Shown: positions 1 through 26,535 of the stretch, piece by piece
Position numbering within the stretch: position 1 is the stretch's first letter
How the letters are laid out: each line of letters starts with the position of its first letter
NCBI RefSeq assembly: GCF_008801925.2
Contig: NZ_CP062803.1
Span: forward strand, 3,224,001 to 3,288,000
Reading direction: 5' to 3'
DNA: 64,000 bases
Origin: Cupriavidus basilensis
GTDB lineage: Bacteria > Pseudomonadota > Gammaproteobacteria > Burkholderiales > Burkholderiaceae
Program-made: the position numbers and the translations under genes
Notes under the pieces: model-generated
What the model was told of the DNA's origin: nothing
Database searches by the model: none
What the model saw: only the letters and a program-made list of their open reading frames with translations

Positions 1-3000
1 GCCGCCGTGCTCCGGGTACCAGGCGCGGTACAGGCTCTGGCTGCCGCCATCGATATACGGCGCAAACGTCGTGCCATCCGGGCCCAGCAGCGTGCCGTCG
101 AAGGCAGTGGCGCGTGGCAGGTTGTACGCCGCGCCCACACCGGCGGACTGCGTACCGGCGGTGTAGACGCCGAACGGCGAGGTCATGGTGAAGTCACCGC
201 CCGAGATCAGGTCCAGGTCACCGGTGCCGGTGCGCAGCACGCTGAAGAGCTGCTGCCGGGCTGGCTGCAGCTGCGTCCTGTACTCCGGGGGCGTGCCGTC
301 CTTGACCTTGACGACCAGCAAGCCATACCCCAGGTCGTTGAGGTTCTTGACCTCTTGCTCGCCGCCCCATTGGTCCAGGTCGATCGGTGTGCCGGGCTCG
401 ATGCCGATCAATTCCAGCGAATCCCCCGCCCACACGTATTCGCCCGGCAAGCCGGTGCCCGGCAACAAGACGTTCGTCGAGACCAGGCCGTAGTGGGTGT
501 CGGCCAGCAGCATGGACGCCTGCTTGCCGTGCGTCTGCAAGGCGCGCGTGTCCGCGGCCTGCGTGTCGGCGCCACTCACCAGCCGCACCGACCACGATTG
601 CGAACCCTCGGGCAGCATCGGCGCCAGCGCCCAGTTGCGGCCCTGGTTGCCGCTGGCGTCCCCTGGGCGCAGCGACACCATGACCGCGTCGTCCGGCAGC
701 TTGACCACCGTTTCGCTCGGGATCACCGCGCCCTTGCGCAAGGCAAGTGCGTTCGCCAGGTAGACCCCTGGCGCGGTCTCCACGCTCGTGCCGGTCTGCG
801 GCAGCGGCACGCCGGCAGGCCAGGTCATGGCTGCTACGCTGGCTCCGCCGGCAAGCCGGTTGCCGGCATCGAGCTGCATGCCGCTGGCCAGCGTCAGCGG
901 CTGCGACAGCACCGTACCCGCCGCTTGCACGATATTGCCTTGCGCATCGCGCACCGCGCCGCCCAGTATCGTACCGGCTGGCAGCACCAGGTCCGCCGCC
1001 AGCGTGGCGCGTGCGGGCAGCACCGTGCCGGGGCGCAGGCTCACCGCCTTGATCGGCAGGTCGTAGTTGAGCGTGCGGCCGGACAGGAAGAAGGTGTCTT
1101 CCGCCAGCGTGACCAGCTGGCCCTGCGGGATGACGACATCGCCGCCCCAGGGCACCCTGCCCTTGACCAGCACCCAGCCCTGATCGTCCGGGGTGACCGG
1201 CAGCGCCGAGGCGTCGAAGCCATCGGTCAGGCTGCCATAGACATTCAGGTTGCCGCCCGCGCGCAGCACCAGCGCGCCGGCTTCGCCGGAGCCATAGACG
1301 CCGGTCTGCTGCGTGCGCGGGTTGACGCTGGCATAGCGGTAGCGCGACAGGTCGATGTCGCCATCGACGTGCAGGTCGCCATCCGGCGTGGCGCTGACGA
1401 TCTCCACGCCCGGGCGCAGGTGGAAAGCATCCGCATAGCCGCGCAGGCCGGCGAGCTTGCGGTTCATCAGGTCGCCGTTGGCCAGCGCATTGCTCATGAA
1501 CACCAGGCTATCTGCGTGCTTGGCGTCCAGGTAGGCCTGGTTGATGACCTGGTAGGGACGGCCGTCGGCCATCGGATCGGTGCCCCAGGCCGCGTCCTTG
1601 TAAGACCAGAAGCCGTTGACCGCGATGGAGCGCGCGCCGTCGATGCGCAGCGCGCCGCTGGCGTCGATATCGATATCGTTGCCGGTGGCGCCGCCCAGGC
1701 GCGGGGCGTTGAGCTCGACCGTGCCGAGCGACTGTGCGCCTGCGCCGGTGCCGGCGCGCAGGTCCATGCGCGCGCCGCTCTCAAGCGTGAGCCGGCCCGT
1801 GCCGGCGTTGATCTCGATGGTGGCGCGGTTGGGCGCTTCGATGACCTGGCCGTAGCTATCCACGCGCAGCACCGTGCCGTGCGCGTCGAGCAGTGCGCCG
1901 CCGCCGATGGTGACGCCGTTGCGCGCGGCCAGGCGAATGCTGCCGACCTGCTCGCCGCTGGCGTCGATGGTGCCGGTCACGGTGAGCTTGCCGCCGTCCA
2001 CCGACACGCTGACCTCGCGCGCCTTGAGCTCGTCGCCGATGGCCAGGTCGCCCTGCTTGAGCTGGAAGCTGCGGATGCCGGAGAGCTTGCCGTCGTTGAG
2101 GCGCTGGTTCAGTCCCGTGAAATCGGCGATATGCTGCGCGCGGATATCCGCGCCGCCGGCAGCAAACGGCACCAGGGTGCCGCCGGCATCGTAGTGGCCG
2201 CTGCTGCCGCCCAGCACGCTGCCGCGCAGGTCGATGGTGCCCGCGCCCGCGCCCAGCGCGAGCACGGTGAGCTTGCCCGCGCGGTTCTCCTTGGCGGAAA
2301 CGTCGATCAGCGCACCCGCCGCCTGGCGCACGTCGCCGGCGCGGCTTTCCAGCACCACGTCGCCGCCCCAGCTGTACTTGCTGACGTCATAGAAATCGAG
2401 CTTGCGCCCGGCCAGGTCGAGCCGCGCGCCGTCGCGCAACATCACGTCGCGCTCGGCGGACACGGTGAGCTTGCCGCTGGGCAAGACTACCGTGCTATCC
2501 AGCGCCACACTGTTGCCGTTGAGCGAAATCTCCGCGCCCAGGGCCTCGGCCAGGGCCTTGCCGGACAAGGCCGGCGCAGCGGCACCGGCAGGCGCGGTCA
2601 AGCGGATGTCGCCACCGGCGGTGATCTTGTTGACCGAGCCCGCCTGGCCGGTCAGCAGCGGCGTGTTGAGATTCAGGTTGCCGCCGCTGTAGGCATAGCC
2701 CTTGGTGGCGTCGTCCCAGGCGCCTTGCGACTGGTAGACCGCGAGCGAGCCCTTCTGGTTGGCGGTGATGCGCTCGCTGGCGTTGAGGTCGACCTGAGCG
2801 AAGCCCAGCACCATCCGGTCCATGGCGTGGATGGTATCGGGGCGGCTGTTGGGGCCATAGCCAAACTCGATCTGCTTCGCGTCGACCTGCAGGCGGCCGC
2901 TGCCCGTGCCGGCGCCGCCGGTTGCCACCAGCCCCGGCGCATTGGTCGCGCCGTTCCACACCAGGATGTCGGTGTGGATGCGGGCCAGCGCATCGGCACT

Positions 3001-6000
3001 GCCATAGCCCTGGATGGCCGGCGTGCCCAGCACCAGGCGCGCGAGCGAGGACTTGCCGGTGGCCGGGTCGATGGTGGACAGCTCCACCGAATCATAGAAA
3101 CGCAGCGCGTCGCGCGCGGTCAGCGCCAGGTTCTCCAGCGCCGGCGCGCCGGTGCTGGTGTCGCCCTTCAGGAGCCGGTCCAGTACCTCCTGGTTCAGCG
3201 TCAGGCCTGGCGGCAGCGCATTGCGCGCGGCCAGGTCCGCCAGCGTCGCCTGGTTGCCCGCGTTGATTGCGCCGACCGACAACACCAGGTTGCGGGTGCC
3301 ATAGCGTGCCGCGTCGCGCAGGTTGAAGCTCTGGTCGGTCGAGGCAGCGATGGTGCCTTCGGAATACAGCGGCGTGGTGCCGTGGCAGACAGCACCCGGG
3401 CTGCAGGCCCCGATGTCGATGCGGCCCGCGCCCCGGAGGGGATCAACGCTATAGCCGGGAGCCAGCATGTCCAGCCAGCCGTTGGAGACCGCCAGCACGC
3501 TGCTGGAGCCCGGGTCGTAGACATAGCCGTTGGTGGAATCCCAGGCCGCCTTGCCCTGCCCCAGCGTATTGATGCCGCCGCCCTGCTCCACGAAGATGCC
3601 GCCGGACTTGGTACTGGTCACCAGGTACACCTCGGCGGCCTTCAGCACCGCGCCTTCGCGCAGGAAGATGCTCCACGCCCCGCTATCGAACGTGGCGATG
3701 TTGGCGCGTTGCCTGCTGCCGGTGTAGTCGACATAGCGCACTGACGGCAGCCCGCCGATGCCGATGCGCGAGGCGCCGATGGCATTGATATCCGCCGCGT
3801 ACAGCGAGGTGCCGCTAAAACCCGGCGTCGGCGCCGCGCCGGCGGCCAGGATTTCGTAGCTGGTTTCGCCCATCATCAGCGCACTGCCGCCAAAGCCGCC
3901 TGCGGCGGGCGCGTACAAGGTGCGCCCGCCAAAGTGCAGGACAGGTTCATCGCCAGGGGCGCGCGGCGCACTCGGCGCGAAGGAAAAGCGCAGTGTCTTG
4001 GCGTCCCGCTCCAGCTGGACGCGTGGCACGCCCTCGCGTGCGGCCTGGGCCAGCGCGAAATCCGCGTAGCTCATCTCGTTGTATTGCGAATAGCTGCGCA
4101 ATACGTCGGCAGGCGTCAGGAAGACCTGGCTAGGCACGGCACTGCGGATGCCGGTGTTGGCCACGCCCAGCTGCGCCGAGGCCGCGTACGAGCCATTGCG
4201 CATGGCCATGGCGCCGCTGGCCGCCAACGTGCCATGGCCAAGCCCGTTGAGCTCGACGCGGAACGCGCCGGGCAACAAGGCGAAGGTGGAAGGCAACAGC
4301 GTGTAGGTGCCGGCGGGCAGGCCCGGCACGCCGGCGCCGATGGTGATCTGGCGGCCGATGGCCGGATCGCTGGCCCCTTTCTCGGCCACCACCGGCGCAT
4401 AGCCGGGCTGCACGCCCGGCACGATCGCATAGACCGGGTTGGTCGACAGGCCCGGCAAGGTGAAGCCGCCGCGGGCGCCGACCTGCACCAGCGGATTCAT
4501 GCGCGCGTCCACCGAGCCACCGCGCCCGGCGAGGAAGGCCGCGCCGGTGAGCGTGCCGCCACCGCTGAGGTCCAGCACCGCGTCCTGCCGCACGTCGATC
4601 GTCTTGCCGGCCAGGGTGATGGCCGGGCCATTACCCACGCCGTTGAACACCACGTCCTTGCCGTCGTGCAGGTAGCTGAGCCCGTCGAGCGAGCCGCCAT
4701 AGGGCATGACCAGGCCGTTGGCGCTGATCGAGCTCACGCTGCCCGGCAGCAGGTTCAGGTGCTCCGTCACAGCGCCATAGCCCACCGATCCCAGCTCGAG
4801 GTTGCCCAGCGGCGCCCGCACCACGCCACCCTGGTTGATGGTCGGGGCGCGCAAGGTCAGGCGGCCGAAGACGGAATAGGGCATGGCGGGCAGTTCATCG
4901 CCCACGCGCTCGATGTTGAGGTGGCGCGCCGGGTCGAATTCGCGCTGGACGTTGCCGTAGTTGTCGAGAAAACTGCGCTGTCCGACCGTCACCGAACCAC
5001 TGTCGCCCATGCCCGGGTAGATCTGCGCGGCCGCCAGCGTGAGGTTGCCGGGTACGCTCAGCGAGGCGGCGCGGTACATGCGCATGTCGCCGCGGCTGCG
5101 CAGGGTCGTTTCGTCGAAGGCACCTCGCTCCACCGTCAGCGATGTGTCAGCGTTGCGTTTGATGACGCCGCGCACGCCGAGCTGCGTGGCTGCCACCAGG
5201 TCCAGCAGATCCGCCTCGACTTGCAGCCGGGTGCCTTGCGACACCAGCGGCACGCCCACGGTGTTCACAGTGGGGTTGGGCATGTAGTAGAAGTCGGGCG
5301 GAACACGGGTCGTGCCGGCCAGGCGAACATAGGGCGCGGCCAGGCTGACCTGGGTGCCGGCAGCGGCATGCTCCGCCAGCGCGATCGCGCCGGTCGTCAG
5401 GCGCAAGCTCTGCCCTAAGGCCAGATTGACGTTGCCATCGAAGCTGATCAAGCCGTTGGCCAGTAGTGCAACGTTGTCGAACCCACCCGCCCCGATGCGG
5501 TCCACGCCGATGCGCCCGGCGCCGTAGGCCAGGGCGGCATCGCGCTCGCCGGGCCGCAGTCCGGCCGCCAGCGCGGTGGCGCCCTGCGTTTGCGCCACCA
5601 CCAGCTCGCGCGCGGCCCGCACCGCGTCCTCGACGCTGGGGCTCTTCTGGGTATAGTTGTCCACCGGTCCGTAGGCCGGTGTCTCCAGGTTCAGCGCCAG
5701 CGTGCCGCCGGCGGCGCCCTGGCCGCCGGCGGCCGCGCGCAGGCTGCCGTCCAGGAACAGGCCGCGAAAGGAACTCAGCGCGATGACGCCACCGTCGCTC
5801 GCCACCTGCGTGGCGCCCAGCCCGGGCAGGTCCAGCCGTGCGGAAGAGCCAGAGGCATCGATGCGCGCGCCCGGCCGAACCACGACGAAGGCGTCCGCGG
5901 CGTCGATCTGGGTGGCGTCCAGGTTATGGCGCGCACCGATCTCGATCGTGCCTCCCTGGCCCACCTTGCCATATACGTTCCCGCGCGCGTCGACAGCGGT

Positions 6001-9000
6001 GACCGCGCGCCCGGCGGCATCGAGCACGGCGCCGTTGCCGATCCAGATCGACATGGCATCGGCGATGCCGTTGGGCCGGTCCGCCTGGTTGCCGGTGCCA
6101 AGCTTGCCCGGCAGCAATGCGATATTGCCGCCCCAGGCGTTCAGCGTGCCCTCGACGGTGATCTGGCCATTGCCCTGCAGGGTCAGCGCACGGCCCGGAT
6201 CGACGGTCACGGTGGCGCCCTGCCCGATGACCAGCGGCGCCTGGGTGTAGACCGAACCGGCCGACAATGCCAGGTCGGCGCCGCCGCGCTGGGTCAGCGT
6301 GGCCTTGAGCGGGTCTTCCTGCCACAGGGGCGGCAGCCAGCGCTCCAGGACTTGCGCCGGATCGGCGCCGCTTGCCACCGCATGGCCCGCAGCGGCGTTA
6401 AAGCGCAGCACCGGCATCGCTACCGCCGTGTTGGCATCCCGGGCGACCTGCACGCCTTGCTGGGCGGCCACGGCGTAGCGCGAGAAGCCGCTCTGGAACA
6501 CCTCGTTGCCGATCACCAGCAGCGGCTTGACCGCCACCGCGCCCGGCAGCTTCGTGCCGGCCAGCAGCCTGGAGCCCTCGGCGAGCACCACGTCCTTGGG
6601 CAACGGCGTGCCGGCCTTCAGGGTGCTATTGAACTCGGGCACGGGCATGCCGTTGGGAAAGACGTCCGCTGGCACCACGTAGCCCGGTGCCAGGTCGCCC
6701 GATGAGCCTACCAGCACGGTACCGGCGGGGGCGATGTTGCCGTTGGAATAAAAGCGGCCCTTGTCGTCGATGACCGCGAAGTTCCAGGTCGTGCCGCGCG
6801 GCACCAGCCACGGCGCTTGCAGCGTGACCTTGCGCGTCGCGCTGAACAGCGGGTTGCCTTGCATCGCCTGGCCCGGCGCCACGATGTCCGCCATGTACGT
6901 GAAATCACTGGGCAGCACCGTGCCGGCCGGCAGCGTGACCGACTGCGCCAGCGTCAGGTTGACCGATACCGACTGGCCCGCCGGCAACAGGCCGCTGTCG
7001 GCCAGCAAGCCGCCGCCGATGGCAATGCCCACGCCGGTATCGATGGTGAGCGTACCCCCGCCCTTGACGCCATAGCCGCGTAGTTCGCCGTTCATCCGCA
7101 ACGCGCCGGAACCTTTGCCAGCGACGTCGTTCTGGTTGGACAACAGCGTGATATTGCCGCCCCGCCCGCCTTGTATCTTGTTGCCGGCGAGCAGCGCCGC
7201 GCCCGACGACACATCCAGCACGCTGCCCGTGCCAAGGGTGACGTCGCCAGTGCTGCTGATGGTGATCGCGCCACCGTTGACGTAGGGCAGCCCGCCGATC
7301 CGGGTGAAGTCCAGTTCGAGGTTGGACCACAGCCCACGCCCATCCAGCGTGACACCTTGCCCCACCGAAACGCCGGGCGTATAGCCCTTGGCCGGTAACG
7401 CCACCACCGGCACGTCCAGCCAGGCGCCACCGGCGCTGCTGGTGTACTGATTGATCATGTTGCCCAGCGCGATGCGCCCGCCGCGCGCCGCGAGGTCCGC
7501 CCCGACGTCCACCTGCGTGGCATGCAGCGCGAGGTCGCCGCCCGCGGCCAATTGCACGGCGGCGCCAACGTCGATGCCGTCCCTGGCGTAGACCTTCAAG
7601 GCGCCCAGGCCTAGCCCATTGATCCACCCGGCATCCAGGCGCAACTTGCCCTTGCGCTCGTCGGGCAGCGCGTCCGTCATGGCCAGGCCATCCGCGATGC
7701 CTTGCACGACGCCGATATCCACCTGTTTCACCAGTGCCTGCGGGCTGTCGCGCAGCATGCCGGTCTTGCTGTCATAGATCGGCGTGAGTTGCCCAACGAT
7801 CAGTTGGCCGGCGCGTGGCGCGGCGATCTGCGATTGCTTGTAGCCGTCCAGGCCGACATCCCGCGCGTCGCGCTGGCGATCGCCCTGGAATACCGTGGTG
7901 TCGATATGGCCTTCGAGCACCGCGGACTGCGTGCCAACAACCACGCGCCCGGCATCGCGCCCGACCGTGTAGCCGTTCTCCAGCCGCTCGCCCGGCGCGA
8001 TCAGCGGGCTGAGGAAGTATTCCGTGGTGTTCTTGCCCCAGCGCGCGTGCGCGTTCTCGAAGCCGCGATACAGCCCGGTGTAGAGGTTGTCCGCAGGCGC
8101 GGTAGCCAGGTTATACAAGCGCCCGTCGACTCCCCTGAGCCAGGTCTGCTTGATGATGCCGCTCTGCACGTTCAGCGAACCGCCGGAGACATTGATGCCG
8201 GACCCGGCCTGCGTGACCAGCTCGCCGCCGCTGAAGGCCACGGTGCCGCCCTGCGCGGCCCATTCGCCGATGCTGTGGCCGCCGGTGCTCAGGTAGCCGC
8301 TGACTTCCAGCAGGCCGCCGCCCGTGTACATGCGCTCGGTGGCATAGCCGTTGGTGCCCGCGGCGACGCGCACCAGGGTGCGGCGGTCGATCCAGATATT
8401 GGCGTTGTTGAGCAGCTTGCTGTCGCGGTTGAGCGGGGCGTCGCGTTGCTCGTTGCCCTGCACGTTGATCATGACGTTGTTGGATTCCATCGCCACGCTG
8501 ACGCCCACGGCGCCAGCCACGTCGATCGCGGCGCGATCCGCCACGCGCGTGCGGCGCACGGCGCCCACCATCACCTGGCCACCGGTGGCGAGCGTCATGG
8601 AGTCGGACTGGAAGTCGACGTCGCCGCTGGAATCGATCTTCACCAAAGACTGGTCGCGCCGGTTGTAGGCGCCATCGCTCAGCCGCGCGGAGTCCTTGAT
8701 CAGCGCATCGCGCTGCGCATCCAGGGCGGTGGCGTTGCTGTCGTCGAGCAGGATCGCGCTGACGCTGCCGGGCCCCAGGATCACCCGGCTCTCGGCGTCG
8801 CCTACGGCTGTGAGGTGCAGGGTGCCGCGCGTGGTGACCGAGGTGCTGGCAAGCGCCACGCCGGACTGCTCCACGCTGCGGCCAACCAGCGTGATGTCGC
8901 CGGTCGCCGCCTGGAGAAAGCCGCTGTTGCTCACGCGGCCTGCCAGGCTGCCGGGGTTGCGCTGCACGCTGACCTCGTTGCCGCGCGTGCTCGAATCCTG

Positions 9001-10410: not shown

Positions 10411-10480
10411 CCCTCCATGTCAGGATACTTGTCGTCTCCGTCTCCTTGGTGAAGCAAAATGGAGGGCGGTGTGCGAATAG

Positions 10481-10984: not shown

Positions 10985-11001
10985 TCAGCACCCCGGATCG
11001 C

Positions 11002-12033: not shown

Positions 12034-12066
12034 CGGCTGAGGCGACAACTACCTTGACACACGCCG

Positions 12067-17318: not shown

Positions 17319-17840
17319 TTACGCGGCGGTTGCCTCTTCCTGCGCAGGTGCGTCCGCGGTTGCCTCCGCGGTTGCCTCCGATACCGCCGGCTGGAAGTTG
17401 CGCAGATGCAGGAAAAACTGGCCCATCATCTGCGTCCACAGCTGCAGCGCCACGGTGAGATAGTCGGGGCCCACGCCGCCGGAAATCACCACGTCCATCT
17501 CAAGCACCAGGAATTCGCCGTGCTGCGCCACGCGCGCGAAGCGCTTGGCGCGATGCCAGTCGCCCAGCACACCTTCGGGCAACGCGCCGCCTTGCACCCG
17601 CAGCGGGCAGCTCAGCGTGAAATCCAGGTACGCATCCGGCGCAGCCGAGTTGCCCCAGAGGACCTGGAAGCCAACGCCGTGGCTGGCGCTGTGCAGGCGC
17701 TGAACGCCGTCCTGCTCGATGGCCGTCACAGCGCAGCCGGCGGCCTTGATGGCATCGCAGACCTGCTCCGAAGTGACTGCCATCAGCAGTGCGGGCTGGC
17801 TGTCTGCCGAGGTGTCGATCTGGGTTGCGGTGGTGTTCAT
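17319..17840 (-). CDS. YbjN-domain protein
   Basis: A 173-residue cytoplasmic protein without signal peptide. The YbjN domain spans about residues 20-150 (VTSEQVCDAIKAAGCAVTAI, FLVLEMDVVISGGVGPDYLT, ALQLWTQMMGQFFLHLRN). The C-terminus is an Ala/Glu-rich tail. YbjN folds resemble type III secretion chaperones and act as regulators or stability factors in other bacteria. It is the last gene of the TPS/ExbBD unit, 100 bases after the isomerase gene. A chaperone or regulator role for the exoprotein is only a guess. Confidence 0.8.
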   Translation of the reverse strand: MNTTATQIDTSADSQPALLMAVTSEQVCDAIKAAGCAVTAIEQDGVQRLHSASHGVGFQVLWGNSAAPDAYLDFTLSCPLRVQGGALPEGVLGDWHRAKRFARVAQHGEFLVLEMDVVISGGVGPDYLTVALQLWTQMMGQFFLHLRNFQPAVSEATAEATADAPAQEEATAA

Positions 17841-17940: not shown

Positions 17941-18891
17941 CTAGTTCGCTTTCTGCAGCACGGCATCCAGCGCGGCGGTGTCGATGCTGGCCGCGCCTGG
18001 CGCAACCAGCTTCGCCATATAGGCCTGCACGAGCTGCTGCTGGCGTTGCTGGCGCATCGCCGACACCAACTGCGGCTTGATCTCGTCGAGCGTTGCGGTG
18101 CGGCCAGGCTGCGTGTCCAGCAGCTTCACCACATGAAAGCCCGCGGCCGATTGCACCGGGTCGCTTACCTGGCCAACCTTGAGCCTGGCAACGGTGTCGC
18201 GCACTTCCGGCAGCATCTGCGCCAGCGGCAGCGTGCCGACCTCCCCGCCGCGCTCGGCACCGCGAGGATCCTGCGAGCGGCTCTTGGCGAGCGCCGCGAA
18301 GTCGCCCTGGCGTGCCTGCGTGGCAAGCTTGCGGGCTTCGTCGCGCACCTTGGCCGTGGCCGCGGCATCGCTGCCCTGGGCAGCCAGGAAGATCTGCGCG
18401 ACGCGGTAGGTGGCGGGCACCTGGAAGTTCGCCTTGCCTTCTTCATAGGCCGCCTTCACCTCAAGCTCGGACGGATAGTCCGCCGGCACCTGCGTGACCG
18501 ACTCCAGGTAGGTGGAGGCGACGATCCGCGCGGAGATCTCGCGCATGGCGGCATCGACGCGCGCCTTCACCTCGGGCCGTTCCGCCCAACCCTTGCCCTG
18601 TGCCTCGCGCAGCAACGCTTCACTGGCCAGGCGCTGGCGCAGCCAGCTCTCGATGCCCGCGCGGTTGCTCCTGGCCGCGGCGCGGTCCGCTTCTGGCAGG
18701 CCCTGCAGCAGCCGTTCCACGTCATCCTGGCCAACGGTGACCGAGCCGGCACGCGCCACCACCGGACCGCTTGCCGGTGCGGGCTCCGCCGCCTGCACCG
18801 GCGCCGCGCTCAGCCACGAGGCCAGCAGGATGCCGATGGCCGTGCGCACGGGCGGCAGCATGGACTGGACGTGCGATTTCATTCGAATCAT
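17941..18891 (-). CDS. Periplasmic parvulin-type peptidyl-prolyl isomerase (SurA/PpiC-like)
   Basis: A 316-residue foldase for outer-membrane or secreted proteins. A signal peptide (residues 1-38, ending PVQAAE) precedes a helical SurA-like N-domain (45-160, TVGQDDVERLLQGLPEADRA). The PpiC rotamase domain spans about 165-270 (YRVAQIFLAAQGSDAAATAK, RSQDPRGAERGGEVGTLPLA, VGQVSDPVQSAAGFHVVKLL). A C-terminal helix closes the chain. The start at 18891 is an ATG with weak AAGGTAAG upstream; the frame stays open further up but overlaps the previous gene. It probably helps fold TpsA, the porin or TpsB in the periplasm. Confidence 0.9.
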   Translation of the reverse strand: MIRMKSHVQSMLPPVRTAIGILLASWLSAAPVQAAEPAPASGPVVARAGSVTVGQDDVERLLQGLPEADRAAARSNRAGIESWLRQRLASEALLREAQGKGWAERPEVKARVDAAMREISARIVASTYLESVTQVPADYPSELEVKAAYEEGKANFQVPATYRVAQIFLAAQGSDAAATAKVRDEARKLATQARQGDFAALAKSRSQDPRGAERGGEVGTLPLAQMLPEVRDTVARLKVGQVSDPVQSAAGFHVVKLLDTQPGRTATLDEIKPQLVSAMRQQRQQQLVQAYMAKLVAPGAASIDTAALDAVLQKAN

Positions 18892-19073: not shown

Positions 19074-19850
19074 TCATGGGCGTGGCGCCTCTGCCGCGCC
19101 CGTGGCGCTTGTGGTGTTTGTAGTGTTCGTGGTGCTCTGCGCATCCTTGACTTCGGCGGCCGCCTGCGCGGGTGCGTCGGCGGCTGCCGCAGCGCCGGCC
19201 ACGAAGCGCCCTTCGTACAGCTTGTCGCCATACTCCTGCGCGATCTGCTCGAACTTCACCCGGCTCTGCGCCGCGAAGGGCTGGCGCGCGATCATCACCG
19301 TGCCCAGGTCCACCGTCTCGTAGGCGCGCAGGATCTCCTGGCCCACTGCGTAGAGCTTCGCGTTCTTGGCCTCGCACTGCGCCACCGTGGCGTGCAGCGT
19401 CTTGGCCTCCAGGGCCAGGCGCTGGCGGTCCGCCTCGGCTGCGCGTGCGAGCTTGAGCAGTTCGTCATAAGCGTTGCGGTACTGCGCAATTTGCGTGCTG
19501 GCTTTCTCGGCAACCGCCTGTGCCTGCTGTTGCGCCTGCTGGCTCCTGTCGCTCAGCCGTTCGCGCTCCTGACGCTCTGCGGCGAGTTGCGCGCGGGCAC
19601 GCTCCAGTTCCTTCTTCACGTCGCCGTCCGCGCCGGATGGCGCGGCGCCGGCATGTGGCGCGCCGGCCTTGAGCGCGGCCAGTTCGTTCTGCGCCTGTTG
19701 CAGCTGCGTGGTGGTGACGCGCAACTGGGCGCGCAGGCGCTCTTCCATGGTCTGGGCCGGCTGGGCGTGAGCCGCTGCGCCGGCCATCATGAAGCTGGCG
19801 GCGAGCGCCAGCGGACGCCAGGCGCCGCGCAAGCGTGATGTGGATGACAC
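19074..19850 (-). CDS. Periplasmic coiled-coil protein of unknown function
   Basis: A 258-residue exported protein. It starts with GTG at 19850, preceded by the strong site AGGAGGG at 5-nt spacing. The signal peptide ends at AHAQ (about residue 30). Long coiled coils follow: residues 33-65 (MEERLRAQLRVTTTQLQQAQ) and 75-165 (KKELERARAQLAAERQERER, then Gln-rich). A small domain with YAVGQEILRAYETVDLG and EYGDKLYEGRFVAG and a low-complexity Thr/Asn/Ala tail close it. It begins 10 bases after the porin gene, so the two are co-translated. It could be a periplasmic scaffold between the TonB complex and the outer membrane; no family is recognised. Confidence 0.75.
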   Translation of the reverse strand: MSSTSRLRGAWRPLALAASFMMAGAAAHAQPAQTMEERLRAQLRVTTTQLQQAQNELAALKAGAPHAGAAPSGADGDVKKELERARAQLAAERQERERLSDRSQQAQQQAQAVAEKASTQIAQYRNAYDELLKLARAAEADRQRLALEAKTLHATVAQCEAKNAKLYAVGQEILRAYETVDLGTVMIARQPFAAQSRVKFEQIAQEYGDKLYEGRFVAGAAAAADAPAQAAAEVKDAQSTTNTTNTTSATGAAEAPRP

Positions 19851-19860
19851 TGTATCCCTC

Positions 19861-21633
19861 CTAGAAGCGCGTGTTGATCTCGACCTGCAAGATATCGATT
19901 GCCAGCGGCGGGCCATAGACCTCCTTGGTCGACGTCCAGCGGCCGGTCACCCACGTGTTCTTGTCGAGCGCGTACGAGCCGCCCACGTAGTAGCCGCGTG
20001 CGTTGGTGCCGCCCAGGTGGAAGGTCGAATCGTTGTAGCCGTCCGGCATGGCATCCGGCTCGATGCGCTTGTAGCCAAGCAGCATGTTCCAGTCGCCCTT
20101 GGCAAGCGTCACGGGCTTGCCCAGCGTCGCCTGGAACATATAGGCGTTGCCGCCGCTCTTGAAGTCCGCGCGGCTGGTGCCGCCGCTGCCGCCGAAGTTG
20201 TTGACGATGCCGCCGTTTGCGCGCGAGAACATGCCGCCCTCGTCGTAGGCCAGGTTGCGGATGTAGTTCGCATCCATGCGCAGGCCGAGGCTGCCCGCCA
20301 CCTTGGTTTCCCAGCGGAAGTTCAGGTCCAGCAGCTGGAACTTGGACGCCAGGCCCACGTATTGCGGCTGCGGCGTGCCGGCCGGATCCAGCGGATTGAG
20401 CGCGATATTGCGCAACAGCATCAGCGTGTTGCCCTTCTGCATGAAGGCCGGGCGTGACCAGTCGGTGCTGCAGCCATCGGCGCCGGCGTACAACGCACAA
20501 GGCTGCGACACCTGGCCGCTGACGTTGCGGAAGTCGTAGTACGCCAGCGCGCCGCGCAGGCGATTGTCGTTGTTGAGCTTCCAGCTCGCGCCGATCTGCG
20601 CGCCCAGCAGCCATTTCTTCTCGCTGCTCGCCTTGTTCTGGCTGCGGCTGGGGAAGCTGTCGGAAGAATACTCGAGCGGCACGAGGCCCAGCGTGCCGAA
20701 CAGCGCGACGTCCCGGTTGGGCAACGCCTTGTCGAACTGCGCGGCCAGGCCGTCGAAGTTCAGGTCGTTCGAGAACAGCAGGTCGGACGACACGAACGGG
20801 TTGCCGAAGCGGCCAGCCGTGAGGTTGACCCATTCCGCCGGCTTGTAGGACAGCCAGCCCTGGTCCAGCCACACATTCTTCTTGGCCAGGCCGCCGCCCA
20901 GCGTCTGGTTGGTGGACACCGGGCTGTCGTCGTTGCCGGTGGCAATGCGGATGCCCGCATGCGTGCTGTCGGAAATATCGGCCAGCACGCCGAACCTGGC
21001 GCGGGCACGCAGCAGGCTCACGCGATTCTGCCGCGTGTTGAGCAGCGGCGGCAGCGAAAGATTGGTGTTCGGGTTGACGTCAAAGCCGCTGCCCTGGTTG
21101 ATGGCCGCCCAGTCGATGGCGATATCGCTGTTGTTGCTGGAGTAGAAGCGCGATTCGTCGCGCACGCGCACGTCGCCTTCGATGCGGATGCGCTTGGTCC
21201 ACTCCGGCGTTTCGTTCGGTGCCGCCCAGCCTTCGGCTTGGGCCTGGGCCATGATCTGACCCTTGACCTCGTCGCGGATCTGGTCGCGCACGGTATCGGA
21301 GATATAGGGCACGCGCACGTCGCCCGGCTCCACGCGCATGCCGCCGGCGGCGGCGGCGGCGGCCGGGGCTGCCGACGCCAGGCGCTGCGCCTGCTGCTGC
21401 GCCATGGCTTCGGTCTGGGCCTGGGCGAGCAAGGCTTCGCCGGCATCTTTTTTCAGGGCACCGCTTTGCATCAGGCCACGGATCAGCTTGACCATGGTGC
21501 TATCGGCGGGCGCCGCGCTTTGCGCGTAGCCCGCGCCGCTTGCGCCGAGCAGTGCGATCGCCATGGCGGCGGCCAGCGCGTGGGTCTTGCGGGCCGGCTC
21601 CGCATGGCGCCGGGAGTTTGCTGGATGGTTCAT
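19861..21633 (-). CDS. Putative outer-membrane porin (Porin_5-like)
   Basis: A 590-residue protein with signal peptide (ending GAGYAQ, about residue 37). A helical N-terminal region (VKLIRGLMQSGALKKDAGEA) is followed by Ala/Gln-rich and VRVPYISDTVRDQIRDEVKG segments, probably a periplasmic coiled coil. A beta-barrel occupies about residues 140-590, with alternating strands and a C-terminal Phe (EINTRF), the usual outer-membrane assembly signal. The start at 21633 has no good ribosome-binding site; 21672 is an alternative. As part of a TonB/ExbBD operon it may be the outer-membrane partner energised by that complex, though no plug domain is seen. Confidence 0.82.
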   Translation of the reverse strand: MNHPANSRRHAEPARKTHALAAAMAIALLGASGAGYAQSAAPADSTMVKLIRGLMQSGALKKDAGEALLAQAQTEAMAQQQAQRLASAAPAAAAAAGGMRVEPGDVRVPYISDTVRDQIRDEVKGQIMAQAQAEGWAAPNETPEWTKRIRIEGDVRVRDESRFYSSNNSDIAIDWAAINQGSGFDVNPNTNLSLPPLLNTRQNRVSLLRARARFGVLADISDSTHAGIRIATGNDDSPVSTNQTLGGGLAKKNVWLDQGWLSYKPAEWVNLTAGRFGNPFVSSDLLFSNDLNFDGLAAQFDKALPNRDVALFGTLGLVPLEYSSDSFPSRSQNKASSEKKWLLGAQIGASWKLNNDNRLRGALAYYDFRNVSGQVSQPCALYAGADGCSTDWSRPAFMQKGNTLMLLRNIALNPLDPAGTPQPQYVGLASKFQLLDLNFRWETKVAGSLGLRMDANYIRNLAYDEGGMFSRANGGIVNNFGGSGGTSRADFKSGGNAYMFQATLGKPVTLAKGDWNMLLGYKRIEPDAMPDGYNDSTFHLGGTNARGYYVGGSYALDKNTWVTGRWTSTKEVYGPPLAIDILQVEINTRF

Positions 21634-21707: not shown

Positions 21708-22418
21708 TCACGGCCGGCGCCCCTTGATCGACATGCGCATCGGAAAGCGCAGCGACGCCGGCGGCCGTTCGTCGGCCCGGAAATCGCGCACCATGGCCAG
21801 CACGGCTTCATCGGTCTGCGCGTTGCCGGTGCTGCGCACCAGTTGCACGCGCGTGGCGCGGCCGTCGGCGTCCAGCCACAGCTCGATGCGGATGTCCTCG
21901 AACGCCAGCTGCCGGGTGCGCTGGTCGCGCGCAAAGGCCTGCTGCAAGGCACCCGAAACGTAGCTCGAATAGGACCGGCTGCCCAGCCCGCCGCCACCGC
22001 CGGTCATGCCGCCGCCGCGCCCGGCCTGGATGCCAAATGCATCCGTGCCGGCTTGCGCCGCGCCGTCGATCGTGACCGGGTCGCCGAGATCTTTCGACGG
22101 GCTTGGGGGGGCGTCGTCCTTCGGCGCTTCCTGCGGGTCCGCCGGCTTGGGCTCGGGTTCGACCACTTCCGGCTTGACCTTCTCCGGCACGGGCTCGGGC
22201 GGCTTCTCAGGCTCGGGGGGTGGCGGCGGCGGCGGCGGCAGCACCAGCATCGGCGTGGCCGCCACCTCGCGCTTGGTGCTGGCAGTGTCGGACAGCAAGC
22301 GCCAGACCAGCACGGCCAGCCCGATGATGACCAGCGCGCCGATGATCAGCCCGCCCCAGCGGCGCCACAAGGCGACGGCGCGCTGCCGGGCAGGAGGAGT
22401 TGAATCACGATGTTTCAC
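21708..22418 (-). CDS. tonB: TonB-family energy transducer
   Basis: A 236-residue inner-membrane-anchored protein that passes proton-motive energy from ExbB/ExbD to an outer-membrane partner. One membrane segment lies at residues 23-42 (GGLIIGALVIIGLAVLVWRL). A Pro/Glu/Lys-rich periplasm-spanning region covers 57-105 (eight consecutive Pro, then EPEKPPEPVPEKVKPEVVEP). A Gly-rich hinge and the C-terminal TonB domain (155-236, IELWLDADGRATRVQLVRST) follow. It starts 10 bases after the exbD stop codon. It is probably dedicated to the TPS/porin system; this is inferred from the operon. Confidence 0.92.
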   Translation of the reverse strand: MKHRDSTPPARQRAVALWRRWGGLIIGALVIIGLAVLVWRLLSDTASTKREVAATPMLVLPPPPPPPPEPEKPPEPVPEKVKPEVVEPEPKPADPQEAPKDDAPPSPSKDLGDPVTIDGAAQAGTDAFGIQAGRGGGMTGGGGGLGSRSYSSYVSGALQQAFARDQRTRQLAFEDIRIELWLDADGRATRVQLVRSTGNAQTDEAVLAMVRDFRADERPPASLRFPMRMSIKGRRP

Positions 22419-22428
22419 CCGACTCTCC

Positions 22429-22839
22429 TCACGCCGGCTTGCCGGTGACGAGGCCGATCTGGTTCAGGTCGATGCGCCTGAGCAGGTCCAGCACCTCCAC
22501 CACCTTCGCGTACTGCACGGCGGCATCGCCCCGCACGATCACGGGGAAATCCGGCGTGAGCGCCTTCTCCGTGCGCAAGCGCTCCTCCAGCTCCGGCAGC
22601 GTCACCGGATAGGCGTCGAGGAACACCTGGCCCGCGTTGTCGATCGTGATGGCCTTGGTCTTGGGCTTCTCCAGCGCGACCGACGAACTCGCCTTGGGCA
22701 GGTCCACCTTGATGCCCGGGATGCTGGCATTGCTGGTCAGGATGAAAATCACCAGCACCACCAGCAGCACGTCGACGAAGGGCGTGATGTTGATGCCGCC
22801 CGTGCGCTTCTTGGTGCCGAACTTGGCTGCGTTTGCCAT
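22429..22839 (-). CDS. exbD: ExbD-family biopolymer transport protein
   Basis: A 136-residue inner-membrane protein of the proton-driven TonB motor. A single membrane segment at residues 18-38 carries the essential Asp (NITPFVDVLLVVLVIF). The periplasmic ExbD domain follows (KAITIDNAGQVFLDAYPVTL, LTPDFPVIVRGDAAVQYAKV). It lies 15 bases below exbB and 10 above tonB, in one operon. Confidence 0.95.
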   Translation of the reverse strand: MANAAKFGTKKRTGGINITPFVDVLLVVLVIFILTSNASIPGIKVDLPKASSSVALEKPKTKAITIDNAGQVFLDAYPVTLPELEERLRTEKALTPDFPVIVRGDAAVQYAKVVEVLDLLRRIDLNQIGLVTGKPA

Positions 22840-22854: not shown

Positions 22855-24645
22855 TTAAGCCCGGTGCAGGGCAGCGGGGACGCGACGTCCCTCGCCCTGC
22901 TCTTCGGCCAGGCGCGTGGCGAACTCGTCCACGAACACCGCCATGTCGGCGCCGATCGAATCCGAGCGCGAGGCCAGCCAGTTGTAGCCGAACAGCGCGG
23001 GAATCGCGACGCCCAGCCCGGCAGCGGTACACAGCAAGGCCGCGGCCATGCCTGGTGCCACCGAGTTGATATCCACCGCGCCGGCCATGGCCGCCACGAC
23101 GAACACCAGCATGATCCCGATCACGGTGCCGAACAGGCCCACATACGGCGCGCCTTCGATGGTGGTCGACAGCCAGTTCATGCGCTTGGCCATGCGCTCG
23201 CTCTCGCGCACCATCACGCCATCCATGGCCGCGCGGATCGCGCTGATGGTCGCGTCGGAGACCGCGTTGAGGTCGTAGCCCATCTGATGGCGGCGGTGCA
23301 GTTCCTCGACCGCCATCTCATACAAGCGCCACAGCGATGAATCCGCCTTGACGGCCTCGGGTACGCGGTTGCTCTTGGCCAGCTGGTCCAGCGGCGCGCC
23401 GGCCGCTTCGCGGAAATGCACCATGAAGGCAGCGTTGGCGCGTGAGGTGGCGCCGTAGCTGCGGCCCTTGCTGATCATGATGGCCCACGACAGCGCCATC
23501 ATGATGCCGAGCAGGCCCACCACGATCCAGGCGTCCAGCGGCATGGCGGCGAGGATGAAGCCGAAATGGCTCTTGCCGGCCTGCTGCTCGTCCGCGCCGA
23601 ACACGGCCAGGCGCGATTCAGCACCCTGCGATACGGCGTCGGCGAGGATCAGCGCATCCGGGCGCGCCACCTTGGACAAGCGCACTTCATCGATGGCACC
23701 GGTGAACGGGCTCAGCGCGGTCGCTGCGGCCGGCGTGTTGGCCGCGGCCGCGTCGGCACCGAGCGTGGCCGGTGTGTTCAGCGCCGGCAAGGCGGTTGCC
23801 AGCGACGCGGCAGGACGTCCGCCGACATACAGCGACACGCTCTTGCCATCGGACTTGACTGCCAGGTGCGACCACTGCCCCGCCTGCACGGGCTGGCCGG
23901 GATTGCTGCGCTGGCCATTGACCTGCACGAACGGCACGGCTTGGTCGATGCCGATGACGAGTTCGCCCGCGCCATCGCGGCGCGCATAGACGACTTGCTG
24001 CGGGCCGAGCCTCTCGGGGCGCACCCAGGCGGAAAAGCCGAACGGCGCGCCCGCGGCCAGCGCCAGCGACGGCGACGACGGCAGCACCAGCGGGGCGGCG
24101 CCGAGCTGCGCGCCCTTGCCGATGACCGTGCCATCGACGCTCACCACAGCGGTCTGGCTGTGGTTGCCGTAAGCCGTGGTGTCGCGGGCCGGTACGCTGC
24201 CTTCGGCGAAGTGGTAGACCAGCGTGTAGTCAGGGTCGAAGGTCCGCTGGCCATTGCCCGATGCCGGCGCCTTGGCGTTGCCGTAGTACATCCACAACTG
24301 CTGCGGACCGGCGGCGGAGACCGACGGAACGTCGATCCAGATCAGCGCGATGCCCAGAAGCGGATCGAACTGTTCGATCTGGTGGTTAAGCACGGTCTTG
24401 TCGTCGGCGGCAACAAAGCGCAGGTCGGCGCCGGTCTCGCTCACGCCTTCAAAGCTGAAGTTGCCGGTATGCAGGCGCAGCAGCACCGGGGTACGCCCGG
24501 CATCGCCGCCGATCGCGCCGGCCTTGGGGCCGGCATCGATCGTGATCGGCTTGCGATAAGCCCAGTCGGGCTGCCACCAGGCATGGGCCAGGTCGGGCAG
24601 GAGTGTGCTCAGCAGCGTGAGCACGAGCAAAAGGATGCGTCGCAT
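22855..24645 (-). CDS. ExbB proton-channel protein fused to a periplasmic DUF2341/LamG-like region
   Basis: A 596-residue composite protein. A signal peptide (residues 1-22, ending AHA) leads into a DUF2341 region (25-130, AWWQPDWAYRKPITIDAG) and a LamG/concanavalin-like lectin fold (about 150-335, FGFSAWVRPERLGPQQVVYA, QWSHLAVKSDGKSVSLYVGG). The MotA/TolQ/ExbB channel follows with membrane segments at about 367-393, 498-522 and 530-553 (GLFGTVIGIMLVFVVAAMAG, AALLCTAAGLGVAIPALFGY). Ordinary ExbB is about 240 residues with no such extension. The extra domains would lie in the periplasm and could sense or bind glycan or protein ligands. It is the first motor gene after tpsB. Confidence 0.92.
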   Translation of the reverse strand: MRRILLLVLTLLSTLLPDLAHAWWQPDWAYRKPITIDAGPKAGAIGGDAGRTPVLLRLHTGNFSFEGVSETGADLRFVAADDKTVLNHQIEQFDPLLGIALIWIDVPSVSAAGPQQLWMYYGNAKAPASGNGQRTFDPDYTLVYHFAEGSVPARDTTAYGNHSQTAVVSVDGTVIGKGAQLGAAPLVLPSSPSLALAAGAPFGFSAWVRPERLGPQQVVYARRDGAGELVIGIDQAVPFVQVNGQRSNPGQPVQAGQWSHLAVKSDGKSVSLYVGGRPAASLATALPALNTPATLGADAAAANTPAAATALSPFTGAIDEVRLSKVARPDALILADAVSQGAESRLAVFGADEQQAGKSHFGFILAAMPLDAWIVVGLLGIMMALSWAIMISKGRSYGATSRANAAFMVHFREAAGAPLDQLAKSNRVPEAVKADSSLWRLYEMAVEELHRRHQMGYDLNAVSDATISAIRAAMDGVMVRESERMAKRMNWLSTTIEGAPYVGLFGTVIGIMLVFVVAAMAGAVDINSVAPGMAAALLCTAAGLGVAIPALFGYNWLASRSDSIGADMAVFVDEFATRLAEEQGEGRRVPAALHRA

Positions 24646-24712: not shown

Positions 24713-26350
24713 TCAGTAACTGGCGGTGACGCTGAAGTTCACGCGCGGGTCGCCACGCTGCGTGCGTGGCCCGTCCTTGAGCGGATAGCCCAGGTCCAGG
24801 CGCCCGGTGACTTTCTGGCCGAGGCGGAACGTAGTGCCCACCCCCACCGAGGCGAGCGAGACGTTGCTCTTCTGCTCGGGCAACGGATCGCGCAGGCGGA
24901 CCTGGCCGGCATCGGCAAACAGGTAGGCACGCCAGTTTTCAACCACGGAAGTGAAGAAGGCCAGCGGCGGCGTGCGCATTTCCACGGACCCGACCACGCC
25001 ATAGTCTCCGGTGGACTCGGCGGACAGGTAGCCGCGCACCGAGTTCATGCCGCCGGCCGCGATCTGCTCGTTCGAGACCAGCGGGGAATCCGTGACCTGG
25101 GCCGCCAGGCGCCAGCCCAGCTGCGCGTTGCCCGCGAAGGTGTAGGAGCCATTGGTATCGCCCTTGAGCACCATGAAGCTCGGCGACGCCTTGTAGCGCT
25201 TGTAGTCGAATTGCTGCGCGGTGCTGCCGTAGCCAAGGAAGCTGCGCGTGCCCGCGACCAGCGACAGGTTCAGGCCGTAGGTGCCGCGCTCCGTCTGGCC
25301 AAAGCCCGAGTAGCCGAGCGTGATCGGCGCGTACTTGAGCGGCACCGTATCGGCGGCGCTGCCAAGGCGCGTCACCTCGTCGTTGTCCTTGAAGTCCACG
25401 CCGGCGCTGAACGCGTGCCACCATGCGCCGGTGTTCGGCACGGTGTAGGTGGCCTTCACGCCAACCGCATAGCCCTTGCCCAATACATTGGTGCCGCCTA
25501 GCGTCGCGACGTTGCTGTCCGATTTGTAGCCGGAAGCCTCGAGGCCCCAGTTAGTGCCACGCAGCGGCGCCACATACGAGCCGGACCACACCTGGGTCTG
25601 GTTCAGGTCCTGCGGGGCGCCAAAGAAGCTGACCGAGGCGCTGTGCCCCAGTTGCCAGAGGTTGTCGTGGCCCAGCGAAGCCGTGGCCCGCAGTTGCTTG
25701 GTATCCGCGCTGTAGTCGTTGTTCAGGCCCACGCTCGCCCGCCACGGGCTGCTGTCTTCGACCTTGAGATCAACGTCCATGGTGCCTGGCAGCGCGCCCT
25801 GCCTGACCAGCGGCATCACCTGCCGGTTCGCGGTCCGGTTCAGGGCAGTGAGCTCCGTCTGCGCCTGGTTGAAGTCCGGCACCGCGCCCTCCGCCAGCGC
25901 GGGCACCTGCTCACGCACCTCTACCGGCGAGTTGTACTGCGCTCCCACCACACGCACGCGGCCCACCTTGGTCTCGCTCACCTGCAGGAAGACCACGCCG
26001 CCAACCGCCTGCTGCTCAGGCAGGTCCACGTACACCGACTGGTATCCCTTTGCCTGGTAGGCCGCCAGCAGCGCATCGCGCGCGCCCTCGATATCCTTCA
26101 GCGTGCGCTTCGGTCCAAGATAAGGCGTGACCGCGCGCTCGATCGCGCGCGCATCCAGCACCGTGTTCCCACGCACGATGTACTCGTTGATGTCGACGCG
26201 CCGTTCCGCGTCGGCCTGCACGCCAGGCGTTGCCGCCTCGGTGGCAGCGGGGGCCTGCGCCATCGCGGTTCCCTGCGTCCCTAGTCCTAGCACCGCCAGA
26301 CATAGCGCCCTCCAGCGCGCGGACGCATCGTTCTTGTTCTTGTCATGCAT
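24713..26350 (-). CDS. TpsB outer-membrane transporter (ShlB/FhaC family)
   Basis: A 545-residue Omp85-superfamily pore that exports the TpsA protein. The signal peptide ends near AMAQAP (residue 32). A ShlB-type POTRA region spans about 52-195 (VDINEYIVRGNTVLDARAIE, RTLKDIEGARDALLAAYQAK, TKVGRVRVVGAQYNSPVEVR). A 16-strand barrel spans 200-545. The hallmark loop-6 motif VRGY is at 438-441 (GGMNSVRGYLSAES). The C-terminus is NFSVTASY with a terminal Tyr. It is the first gene of its operon, below the ECF-type promoter at 26488-26535; the start is the ATG at 26350. Its cognate substrate is almost surely the protein at 1-10080, the only TpsA in the window. Confidence 0.95.
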   Translation of the reverse strand: MHDKNKNDASARWRALCLAVLGLGTQGTAMAQAPAATEAATPGVQADAERRVDINEYIVRGNTVLDARAIERAVTPYLGPKRTLKDIEGARDALLAAYQAKGYQSVYVDLPEQQAVGGVVFLQVSETKVGRVRVVGAQYNSPVEVREQVPALAEGAVPDFNQAQTELTALNRTANRQVMPLVRQGALPGTMDVDLKVEDSSPWRASVGLNNDYSADTKQLRATASLGHDNLWQLGHSASVSFFGAPQDLNQTQVWSGSYVAPLRGTNWGLEASGYKSDSNVATLGGTNVLGKGYAVGVKATYTVPNTGAWWHAFSAGVDFKDNDEVTRLGSAADTVPLKYAPITLGYSGFGQTERGTYGLNLSLVAGTRSFLGYGSTAQQFDYKRYKASPSFMVLKGDTNGSYTFAGNAQLGWRLAAQVTDSPLVSNEQIAAGGMNSVRGYLSAESTGDYGVVGSVEMRTPPLAFFTSVVENWRAYLFADAGQVRLRDPLPEQKSNVSLASVGVGTTFRLGQKVTGRLDLGYPLKDGPRTQRGDPRVNFSVTASY

Positions 26351-26487
26351 GTGTTTGCTCAATCCCTTGCGAAACAATTGCCGTCGTTCCCTTGCGCCGG
26401 CGCCTCGACCAGAGGCAAGTCGTAAGCGATCGCATCCGATGAGGCCATGATGAGCGGTCATCATTTCAGCGCCGCGTACGATTGGTT

Positions 26488-26535
26488 AGACGAACGGCCC
26501 GCGCGCCGACTGTCGTTTGTCACGAAAGCTTCATC
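26488..26535 (-). promoter_or_regulatory. Predicted ECF sigma promoter of the tpsB operon
   Basis: Minus-strand GTGACAAACGACAG (down to 26510), 17 nt, then CGTCT (26492-26488). The upstream flank ATGAAGCTTTC matches ATGAATCTTCC of the promoter at 17182-17228. About 24 of 26 upstream bases and the -10 are identical while the spacer is unrelated, which argues for selected contacts. Transcription would begin about 130 bases before tpsB. The rest of the 26351-26676 gap must also hold the promoter of the plus-strand gene at 26677; I see no clear sigma-70 match there. Confidence 0.75.

Follow-up and report, generated by a model that had tools for sequence, protein, structure and literature searches.

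The stretch analyzed here is a 64,000-nucleotide segment of the Cupriavidus basilensis genome (contig NZ_CP062803.1, positions 3,224,001 to 3,288,000; hereafter the window). At positions 1-26,535 its minus strand carries a cluster of genes for two-partner secretion (TPS), a TonB-type motor and cell-surface signaling (CSS). In the minus-strand reading order these are tpsB, a DUF2341-LamG-ExbB fusion, exbD, tonB, a Porin_5 barrel, a coiled-coil (CC) protein and ppiC, followed by ybjN, a small TonB-C-like gene, htrA, an STN-domain protein, an extracytoplasmic function (ECF) sigma factor, fecR and tpsA (Table 1). An earlier sequence-only reading had listed these genes, and all of them were found about where it had placed them, most via Pfam matches over the cut-off: ShlB and POTRA_2 (tpsB), DUF2341, Laminin_G_3 and MotA_ExbB (fusion), ExbD, TonB_2 (tonB, 25.8 bits), Porin_5 (657.8 bits), Rotamase (PpiC), YbjN, Trypsin_2 and PDZ (HtrA), STN, Sigma70 r2/r4, FecR and the TPS domain (tpsA). 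The TonB_2 matches of the STN protein (21.7 bits) and of the small TonB-C-like gene (20.7 bits) fell under the cut-off of 22, and the Pfam scan of the coiled-coil protein gave no match over cut-off. The two partners have the usual TPS make-up, a TpsA with a TPS domain and a TpsB with POTRA domains and a ShlB barrel. The tpsA frame extends beyond the window and measures 4540 codons from stop to stop. The run from tpsB to tpsA had been described as lying on one strand, which is true of all the named genes, but fecR and tpsA are not contiguous, as a plus-strand insertion sequence (IS) stands between them.

Table 1. Features of the TPS, motor and signaling locus (window coordinates)
Feature	Coordinates	Strand	Evidence
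tpsB, outer-membrane TPS transporter, POTRA + ShlB barrel, short N-terminus	24713..26464	-	Pfam; PDB CdiB match; TpsB tree
ExbB/TolQ-type motor subunit with N-terminal DUF2341 + LamG	22855..24645	-	Pfam; NCBIfam nearer TolQ than ExbB, both below cut-off
exbD/tolR-type motor subunit, transmembrane Asp present (PFVDVLLV)	22429..22839	-	Pfam; motif; NCBIfam
tonB-like protein: one hydrophobic segment, Pro-rich linker, TonB C-terminus	21708..22418	-	Pfam TonB_2; TIGR01352 over cut-off
Porin_5 outer-membrane barrel, N-terminal helices, conserved VRVPYxP; PA0696 homologue	19861..21633	-	Pfam PF16930; AlphaFold model; fold search
Coiled-coil protein, presumably periplasmic, position of PA0697	19074..19916	-	Profile conservation
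PpiC-type parvulin isomerase, PA0699 homologue	17941..18891	-	Pfam; PA7 match
YbjN-family protein, PA0698 homologue	17319..17840	-	Pfam PF10722; PA7 match
Small TonB-C-like protein, N-terminal hydrophobic segment (by eye)	16641..17117	-	TonB_2 20.7 bits, under cut-off 22; PA7 match 33.8 bits
HtrA-family serine protease, triad motifs present	15239..16639	-	Pfam; motifs
VreA-like signaling protein: STN + TonB/TolA-like C-terminus, no barrel	14389..15180	-	Pfam (TonB_2 just under cut-off); PDB FecA/PupB/FpvA STN matches
ECF sigma factor, VreI-like	13873..14388	-	Pfam; PA7 match
FecR-type anti-sigma factor, VreR homologue	12790..13791	-	Pfam; best PA7 match; FecR tree
tpsA giant exoprotein, N-terminal TPS domain, runs off window	1..10092	-	Pfam PF05860; 4540-codon open frame in genome
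Pho-box-like element 5' of tpsA	10245..10262	-	Core pattern twice in genome
Putative ECF -10 GGTCTAG 5' of tpsA	10207..10213	-	Seen in sequence
Pho-box-like element 5' of tpsB, opposite orientation, as 5' of PA7 tpsA	26517..26534	+	Core pattern twice in genome
Putative ECF -10 CGTCT 5' of tpsB, 24 bp past box	26488..26492	-	Seen in sequence
IS element, HTH_Tnp_1 + rve transposase open reading frames, outside the system	10481..12033	+	Pfam; absent from relative G554

By homology, this locus is the Cupriavidus form of the PUMA3 (VreAIR-Pdt) locus of Pseudomonas aeruginosa. The full-length ExbB fusion of P. aeruginosa PA7 (NC_009656) is 56% identical to that of the window, and in PA7 the genes run STN-ECF-FecR-...-TpsA-TpsB-ExbB-ExbD-TonB-Porin-CC-YbjN-PpiC, the locus ending in a weak TonB2-like match of 33.8 bits. 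The sigma and STN proteins of the window have pairwise matches to adjoining PA7 genes, and its FecR scores 184 bits against the PUMA3 FecR versus 97 bits against the next FecR of PA7. A tree was built from 30 FecR proteins, 30 of the 60 matches found across 6 genomes. In it, the 8 linked to TPS genes, among them PA7 VreR, cluster together (100/100), apart from the 22 others, which are non-TPS FecRs not individually typed as siderophore regulators. On the basis of this tree we reject an identity as a siderophore-type CSS system. The STN protein combines an STN domain (42 bits) with a TonB/TolA-like C-terminal lobe and has no barrel, a two-lobed design that has been published for VreA (PMC2729926). 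In the window, homologues of tpsA, tpsB, exbB, exbD, tonB and PA0696-0699 are linked to the signaling genes.

The sequence-only reading had proposed this PUMA3-like identity, and the proposal is supported: the FecR groups with PA7 VreR rather than with the other FecRs (a comparison of 8 versus 22 rows, made for FecR only), HtrA is the only gene of this set that the PA7 locus lacks, and TPS and signaling genes were found together in related genomes. Its remark that the hxc type II genes are absent also holds, as none occurs among the open reading frames of the locus scanned with Pfam; in PUMA3 homologues the hxc genes are variably placed (PMC2729926). Two other elements of that reading need revision. 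Of the three supposed additions (protease, YbjN and coiled-coil protein), only HtrA is extra, since both others are present in PA7, and a table in a 2020 paper lists PA0697, PA0698 (YbjN) and PA0699 (PpiC). A beta-proteobacterial version of PUMA3, in turn, is a correct identification though not a novel one, as a 2009 paper had already described PUMA3 together with homologues of TPS, ExbBD and PA0696 in Burkholderia vietnamiensis and Janthinobacterium (PMC2729926). HtrA is found in only four of the nine loci of the genus whose surroundings were read (G000, G554, G578 and G588; such identifiers are our own); it may thus have joined the locus recently, with TpsA or the anti-sigma factor as its target. 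Judged by eye, a cysteine that follows the hydrophobic leader of HtrA could be a lipobox. In P. protegens FD6 a VreAIR-like trio lies ~113 kb from the motor cassette. Among viral contigs there were 11 pattern matches to VreA, none of them confirmed.

The tpsA and tpsB genes share a promoter element. An 18-bp sequence, CTGTCACGAAATCTTCAA, lies upstream of tpsA, and its counterpart, TTGTCACGAAAGCTTCAT, lies upstream of tpsB in the reversed orientation. With one mismatch allowed, the 18-mer pattern has 2 matches in the window and 0 in 100 shuffles, and the core pattern TGTCACNAAANNTTCA occurs at exactly 2 sites in the 8.94-Mb genome, those upstream of tpsA and tpsB (0 for the reversed-pattern control). 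The PA7 tpsA gene has TTGTCACGGAAAGTTCAT, oriented as the tpsB site of the window, with CGTCT 25 bp past the box (24 bp at the window tpsB). We take the CGTCT at the window tpsB and the GGTCTAG at the window tpsA to be putative -10 elements of the ECF class. In a Pho-box consensus scan the window tpsA site scored 20.4 against a shuffle maximum of 20.1 (above 50 of 50 simple shuffles), and several sites in other loci, PA7 tpsA included, did not rise above shuffles. Because the consensus scan alone is weak, the case for a pho-box-like element rests on conservation and genome-wide rarity. At P. aeruginosa pdtA, PhoB binds a pho box that is required together with the -10 and -35 regions (PMC4971064). 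Given the shared rare element and this published pho box, yet the weak consensus scan, PhoB control of tpsA and tpsB in Cupriavidus appears likely, and the surface-signaling switch is probably tied to phosphate starvation.

The same genome contains one ExbB fusion and three STN-ECF-FecR-TpsA clusters, namely that of the window and two more on C4 and C1, where no tpsB or motor genes occur in the 28 and 25 kb of DNA examined. The TPS domains of these two clusters are 67-68% identical to that of the window; two further TPS matches in the genome reach 40-42% identity over part of their length. A comparable arrangement has been described for Rhodopseudomonas palustris and Janthinobacterium, each with four PUMA3 clusters, where tpsA comes after three of the clusters and tpsB with exbBD after the fourth (PMC2729926). 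A second ECF-sigma-like gene stands directly 3' of each orphan TpsA gene (L323:1790-2650 and L325:2333-3133), and none was detected after the tpsA of the window. One of the orphan VreAIR-TpsA clusters also adjoins a PstS-like phosphate-binding gene, recognized by eye (L323:52-1344).

The motor genes have sequence features of a TonB-ExbB-ExbD motor: the conserved ExbB transmembrane motifs are present along with the ion-path Asp of ExbD, which was found in all 60 ExbD rows (56 by pattern, 4 by eye). In NCBIfam comparisons, the channel subunit scores nearer to TolQ (137 bits) than to ExbB (75 bits) and the ExbD protein nearer to TolR (96 bits) than to ExbD (70 bits), all of these below the respective cut-offs; the window TonB exceeds the cut-off of the TonB C-terminus model (TIGR01352). 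In 49 of 55 TonB rows the most hydrophobic stretch has no His. The predicted ExbB model (mean pLDDT 57.6) was too poor for use.

The Porin_5 barrel co-occurs with the motor. Among the nearest named relatives of the window porin are Cupriavidus basilensis entries, at 99%. Full-length Porin_5 (E < 1e-100) was found in 19 of the 274 genomes of the class sample and the fusion in 17, both together in 17, i.e. in 17/17 fusion genomes versus 2 of the other 257 (Fisher p 4e-25); this count leaves out 12 genomes with partial matches of 1e-10 to 1e-35, with which 31 in all lie over the family cut-off. The two porin-only genomes have the gene at contig ends, in the order ExbB fragment-ExbD-TonB-Porin-CC (G101) or TonB-Porin (G200, 64% complete), and in G010 the porin and CC genes are found ~26 kb from the motor. 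A VRVPYxP-type segment precedes the barrel in 46 of 49 porins and is conserved at 3.5 bits per site, versus 1.9 upstream, 2.9 just after it and 2.5 in the barrel; we propose it as the best candidate for a TonB contact. The AlphaFold model of the porin has a mean pLDDT of 71.9, and VRVPYxP overlaps a stretch under 50. The fold search returned porins, the first match (TM-score 0.39 by query length) bearing the title 'Outer membrane attachment porin OmpM1', with no TonB-dependent receptor among the 50 fold matches listed. No TonB-receptor plug is visible in the model, the N-terminus of which is of low confidence.

To what extent are the TPS genes tied to this motor beyond PUMA3? The order TpsB-TpsA-ExbB*-ExbD-TonB-Porin_5-CC (ExbB*, the fusion) is recurrent in both Burkholderiales and Gammaproteobacteria, in most cases with no signaling genes detected; the counts below refer to the DNA fetched around each locus, and the profiles were partly grown from cassette proteins. 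In the order-level sample, the fusion is present in 28 of 250 genomes (E <= 1e-50), 21 of which have both TpsA and TpsB in the DNA read. One more (G437) has TpsA on the other strand, three (G415, G444, G464) have a contig-cut giant open reading frame directly upstream that no profile matched, and three (G324, G389, G507) show no TPS gene in the 43, 1398 and 9875 bases of upstream DNA. Eighteen of the 21 loci read TpsB-TpsA-ExbB-ExbD-TonB-Porin, with the TPS genes directly upstream of the motor (three have two ExbD genes), and the CC gene comes next after the porin in 17 of these, the contig of G428 ending at that point. In the class-level sample, a fusion spanning the DUF2341 and ExbB parts was found in 17 of 274 genomes, at 20 loci (its match is in two pieces in G070 and at one G119 locus). 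Thirteen of these loci have TpsA and/or TpsB, one (G221) has a giant open reading frame only, and at six (G070, G104, G119a, G136a, G136b, G150b) no TPS gene exceeded the threshold. Of these six, G070 and G104 are located where a contig ends, and in G119a the opposite strand shows a weak match to TpsA (86 bits). As a control, 20 kb around each of nine ordinary ExbB genes (9 of 12 such loci listed) contained no TpsA, TpsB or porin by the same profiles.

Within the genus, the fusion is present in only 10 of 60 genomes, so the locus is patchy there; the surroundings were read for nine of the ten (G580 left out). In one of them, G578, TpsB, porin, FecR and HtrA are each split in two open reading frames and TpsA is short (L217-L219), which looks like a decayed or mis-assembled locus. 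CSS genes were detected by profile, which very divergent ones could escape, only in G000, G429, G409, G554, G578, G568, G544, G542 and PA7, and at the order and class levels only in the first three of these. All CSS loci present in the TpsB tree (G578 is not in it) fall in one 12-row branch with Pseudomonas and the genus of the window. The tie between TPS and TonB genes noted in the sequence-only reading is broader than drawn there: most of the loci read outside the PUMA3 branch have no detected signaling gene, and the TPS-motor cassette is broader than PUMA3. A second type of locus was also observed (L050, L045, L052), with DUF2341-ExbB, ExbD and TonB and no porin or TPS gene over threshold; at L050 the adjoining genes look, by eye, like gspD/E/F.

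The transporters of the cassette form a group of their own. In an unrooted tree, 42 cassette TpsB rows (3 of them duplicates) separate from 25 other TpsBs (100/100), the latter coming from the 30 loci listed in a POTRA_2 search of 114 genomes; the remaining five of those 30 rows had been assigned to the cassette TpsBs on their scores, ahead of tree building, and three of the five are the same genes as linked rows. The FhaC-type N-terminal plug helix and linker, common though not universal in TpsBs, needs about 50 residues. As judged by a hydrophobicity heuristic, the distance from the signal-peptide core to POTRA1 is 42 residues or less in 36 of 42 cassette TpsBs versus 2 of 25 others (medians 22.5 and 56), and it is 26 residues in the TpsB of the window. 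By this sequence measure, the N-terminus of most cassette TpsBs, that of the window included, is too short for an FhaC-type plug helix and linker.

Starting from the gene content, the PUMA3 homology, the shared promoter element, the recurrent TPS-motor cassette and the presence of a single fusion gene alongside three related TpsA genes in this genome, we consider the best explanation as a whole, somewhat favored over its negation, to be that a PUMA3-type switch controls tpsA and tpsB and that a dedicated motor assists the export of TpsA. According to this model, the VreAIR-like trio, probably with PhoB, would control both genes, and TpsA would cross via TpsB, aided by the periplasmic PpiC and coiled-coil proteins as putative chaperones. 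Through TonB, the TolQR/ExbBD-like motor would transmit proton-motive force to a partner in the outer membrane, probably either the N-terminal VRVPYxP segment of Porin_5 or TpsB itself, and this force may start, speed or gate TpsA export. A single motor might serve all three TpsA proteins as cargoes, with a separate VreAIR trio for each. The TonB-like lobe of VreA would probably read the state of the same outer-membrane partner, making VreA a putative secretion sensor. Motor-assisted TPS by this cassette is likely judging from the gene sequences and their association, the role of the motor in secretion being what we infer from them.

Several observations weigh against this explanation. TPS translocation has been reconstituted without external energy (2017 TPS review). 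In zebrafish, with vreI overexpressed, mutants in tpsA, tpsB, the tonB homologue and PA0696 were as virulent as the wild type (PMC2729926), in an assay for which virulence rather than secretion was the read-out. The second-copy loci G119a, G136b and G150b have ExbB*-ExbD-TonB without a porin or TPS gene over threshold, and G136a and G507 have the porin and CC genes with no TPS gene in 8.9 and 9.9 kb upstream; these five show that the link between the fusion and TPS has exceptions. Six of the 42 cassette TpsB rows measured long N-termini, some perhaps by error: G588 (138 residues; 42 in another measurement) and G239 probably have a misplaced signal peptide, and G010 with its duplicate, G119b and G344 look truly longer. 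No TonB box was obvious in TpsB by inspection. Finally, the window tpsB site scored 18.4 in the Pho-box consensus scan, against a shuffle 95th percentile of 19.7.

A rival reading is that the motor energizes the porin only, for uptake or release of something needed under the same conditions, with a passive TPS pair merely co-inherited and co-regulated. We regard this as unlikely, albeit deserving serious consideration: Porin_5 accompanies the motor in every fusion genome of the class sample and contains the strongest candidate for a contact motif, reconstituted TPS works without an energy supply (2017 TPS review), and G136a and G507 combine the motor with porin and CC alone. However, both TPS genes are present in 21 of the 28 order-level genomes (directly upstream in 18), the TpsBs of the cassette group together and mostly have short N-termini, and the porin model resembles general porins and shows no TonB-receptor plug, with the reservation already made about its N-terminus. 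A quite improbable variant is that the motor serves signaling, TonB force on a TpsB-VreA assembly triggering VreR and the sigma factor, and that secretion is passive. The union of STN domain and TonB-like lobe in VreA would fit, and a published model agrees (PMC2729926), but outside the three order- and class-level loci with CSS genes the motor-TPS cassette occurs without detected CSS. Still more improbable is a Tol-like motor that anchors the giant TpsA on the cell surface, or stretches it there, instead of exporting it. This would accord with the TolQ/TolR-leaning scores of ExbB and ExbD and with the title of the top porin fold match, but that match is to the barrel, at a modest TM-score and with a low-confidence N-terminus in the model. 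That an ordinary siderophore-type FecI-FecR system adjoins a TPS locus by chance is hardly credible: its STN and FecR do resemble FecA and FecR, but no TonB-dependent receptor was found among the open reading frames of the locus scanned with Pfam, the FecR tree places it elsewhere, the rare promoter element is common to tpsA and tpsB, and two more copies of the trio adjoin TpsA genes.

The assisted-export model can be extended, tentatively and at less than an even chance, to a widespread branch of TPS assisted by proton-motive force, with one motor for several cargoes and PUMA3 as a sub-branch with an added switch. Its core would be a seven-gene cassette of a TpsB without plug helix, a giant TpsA, the DUF2341-LamG-TolQ/ExbB fusion, ExbD, TonB, Porin_5 and the coiled-coil protein. 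The locus of the window itself is a further member of the PUMA3/TPS loci known since 2009. The wide cassette, mostly without signaling, is unnamed as far as found in the literature searched: no title or abstract start found in the open literature describes it. Type V secretion is considered not to require an energy source (2017 TPS review), and in the available part of the same review words beginning with ExbB occur 0 times and TonB once. The P. aeruginosa ExbB2-ExbD2-TonB4 system was called still uncharacterised in the 2020 paper, and the DUF2341 domains of stator-like proteins were listed in 2025 among the domains of unknown function that merit study. The cassette would join these three loose ends (TPS energy, the function of ExbB2-ExbD2-TonB4 and DUF2341 on stator-like proteins) in one testable proposal and would offer a reason for the TonB-like lobe of VreA. 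Thus, the locus of the window leads to a wide TPS-motor cassette through which the power source of giant TPS proteins becomes testable.

A few features lie aside from the system. The gap between fecR and tpsA is 2.7 kb and contains the IS; in the relative G554 it is ~0.8 kb and has no IS, but ~280 bp covering the beginning of tpsA and the sequence ahead of it are conserved there (87% identical). The IS lies within or beside a repeat of about 570 bp that forms an imperfect palindrome (window 10081-12800), with a further 120-bp inverted repeat on both sides, and G554 holds parts of the repeat. The minus-strand flank of the locus has a tRNA-Met (28905-28983) and a gene for an RpoD-like sigma factor (29011-31581; RpoD by eye).

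Compared with known systems, the motor shares with TolQR and ExbBD-TonB the MotA_ExbB and ExbD domains, the transmembrane Asp and the TonB-like C-terminus; it differs in the DUF2341-LamG part of the channel subunit, in the locus having no TonB-dependent receptor and in the mostly absent TonB His. With FhaB/FhaC-type secretion the cassette has in common the TPS domain, POTRA and the ShlB barrel, whereas it has dedicated proton-motor genes and, in most TpsBs, an N-terminus short of plug helix and linker. The homologues described in 2009 (Burkholderia vietnamiensis, Janthinobacterium and R. palustris), compared by text only, show the same association of PUMA3, TPS, ExbBD and PA0696 in other genera. 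The closest relative is PUMA3 of P. aeruginosa (vreAIR - pdtAB - exbB2D2 - tonB4 - PA0696-0700), which shares the VreA-like STN and TonB-like protein, the ECF sigma factor and FecR, as well as TpsA, TpsB, the DUF2341-LamG-ExbB fusion, ExbD, TonB, porin, coiled-coil, YbjN and PpiC proteins, a weak homologue of the small TonB-C-like protein and a similar promoter element. In contrast to it, the part of the locus in the window is without hxc, has HtrA added, places the signaling genes after the motor cassette and has an IS before tpsA, and its genome holds two more VreAIR-TpsA clusters elsewhere.

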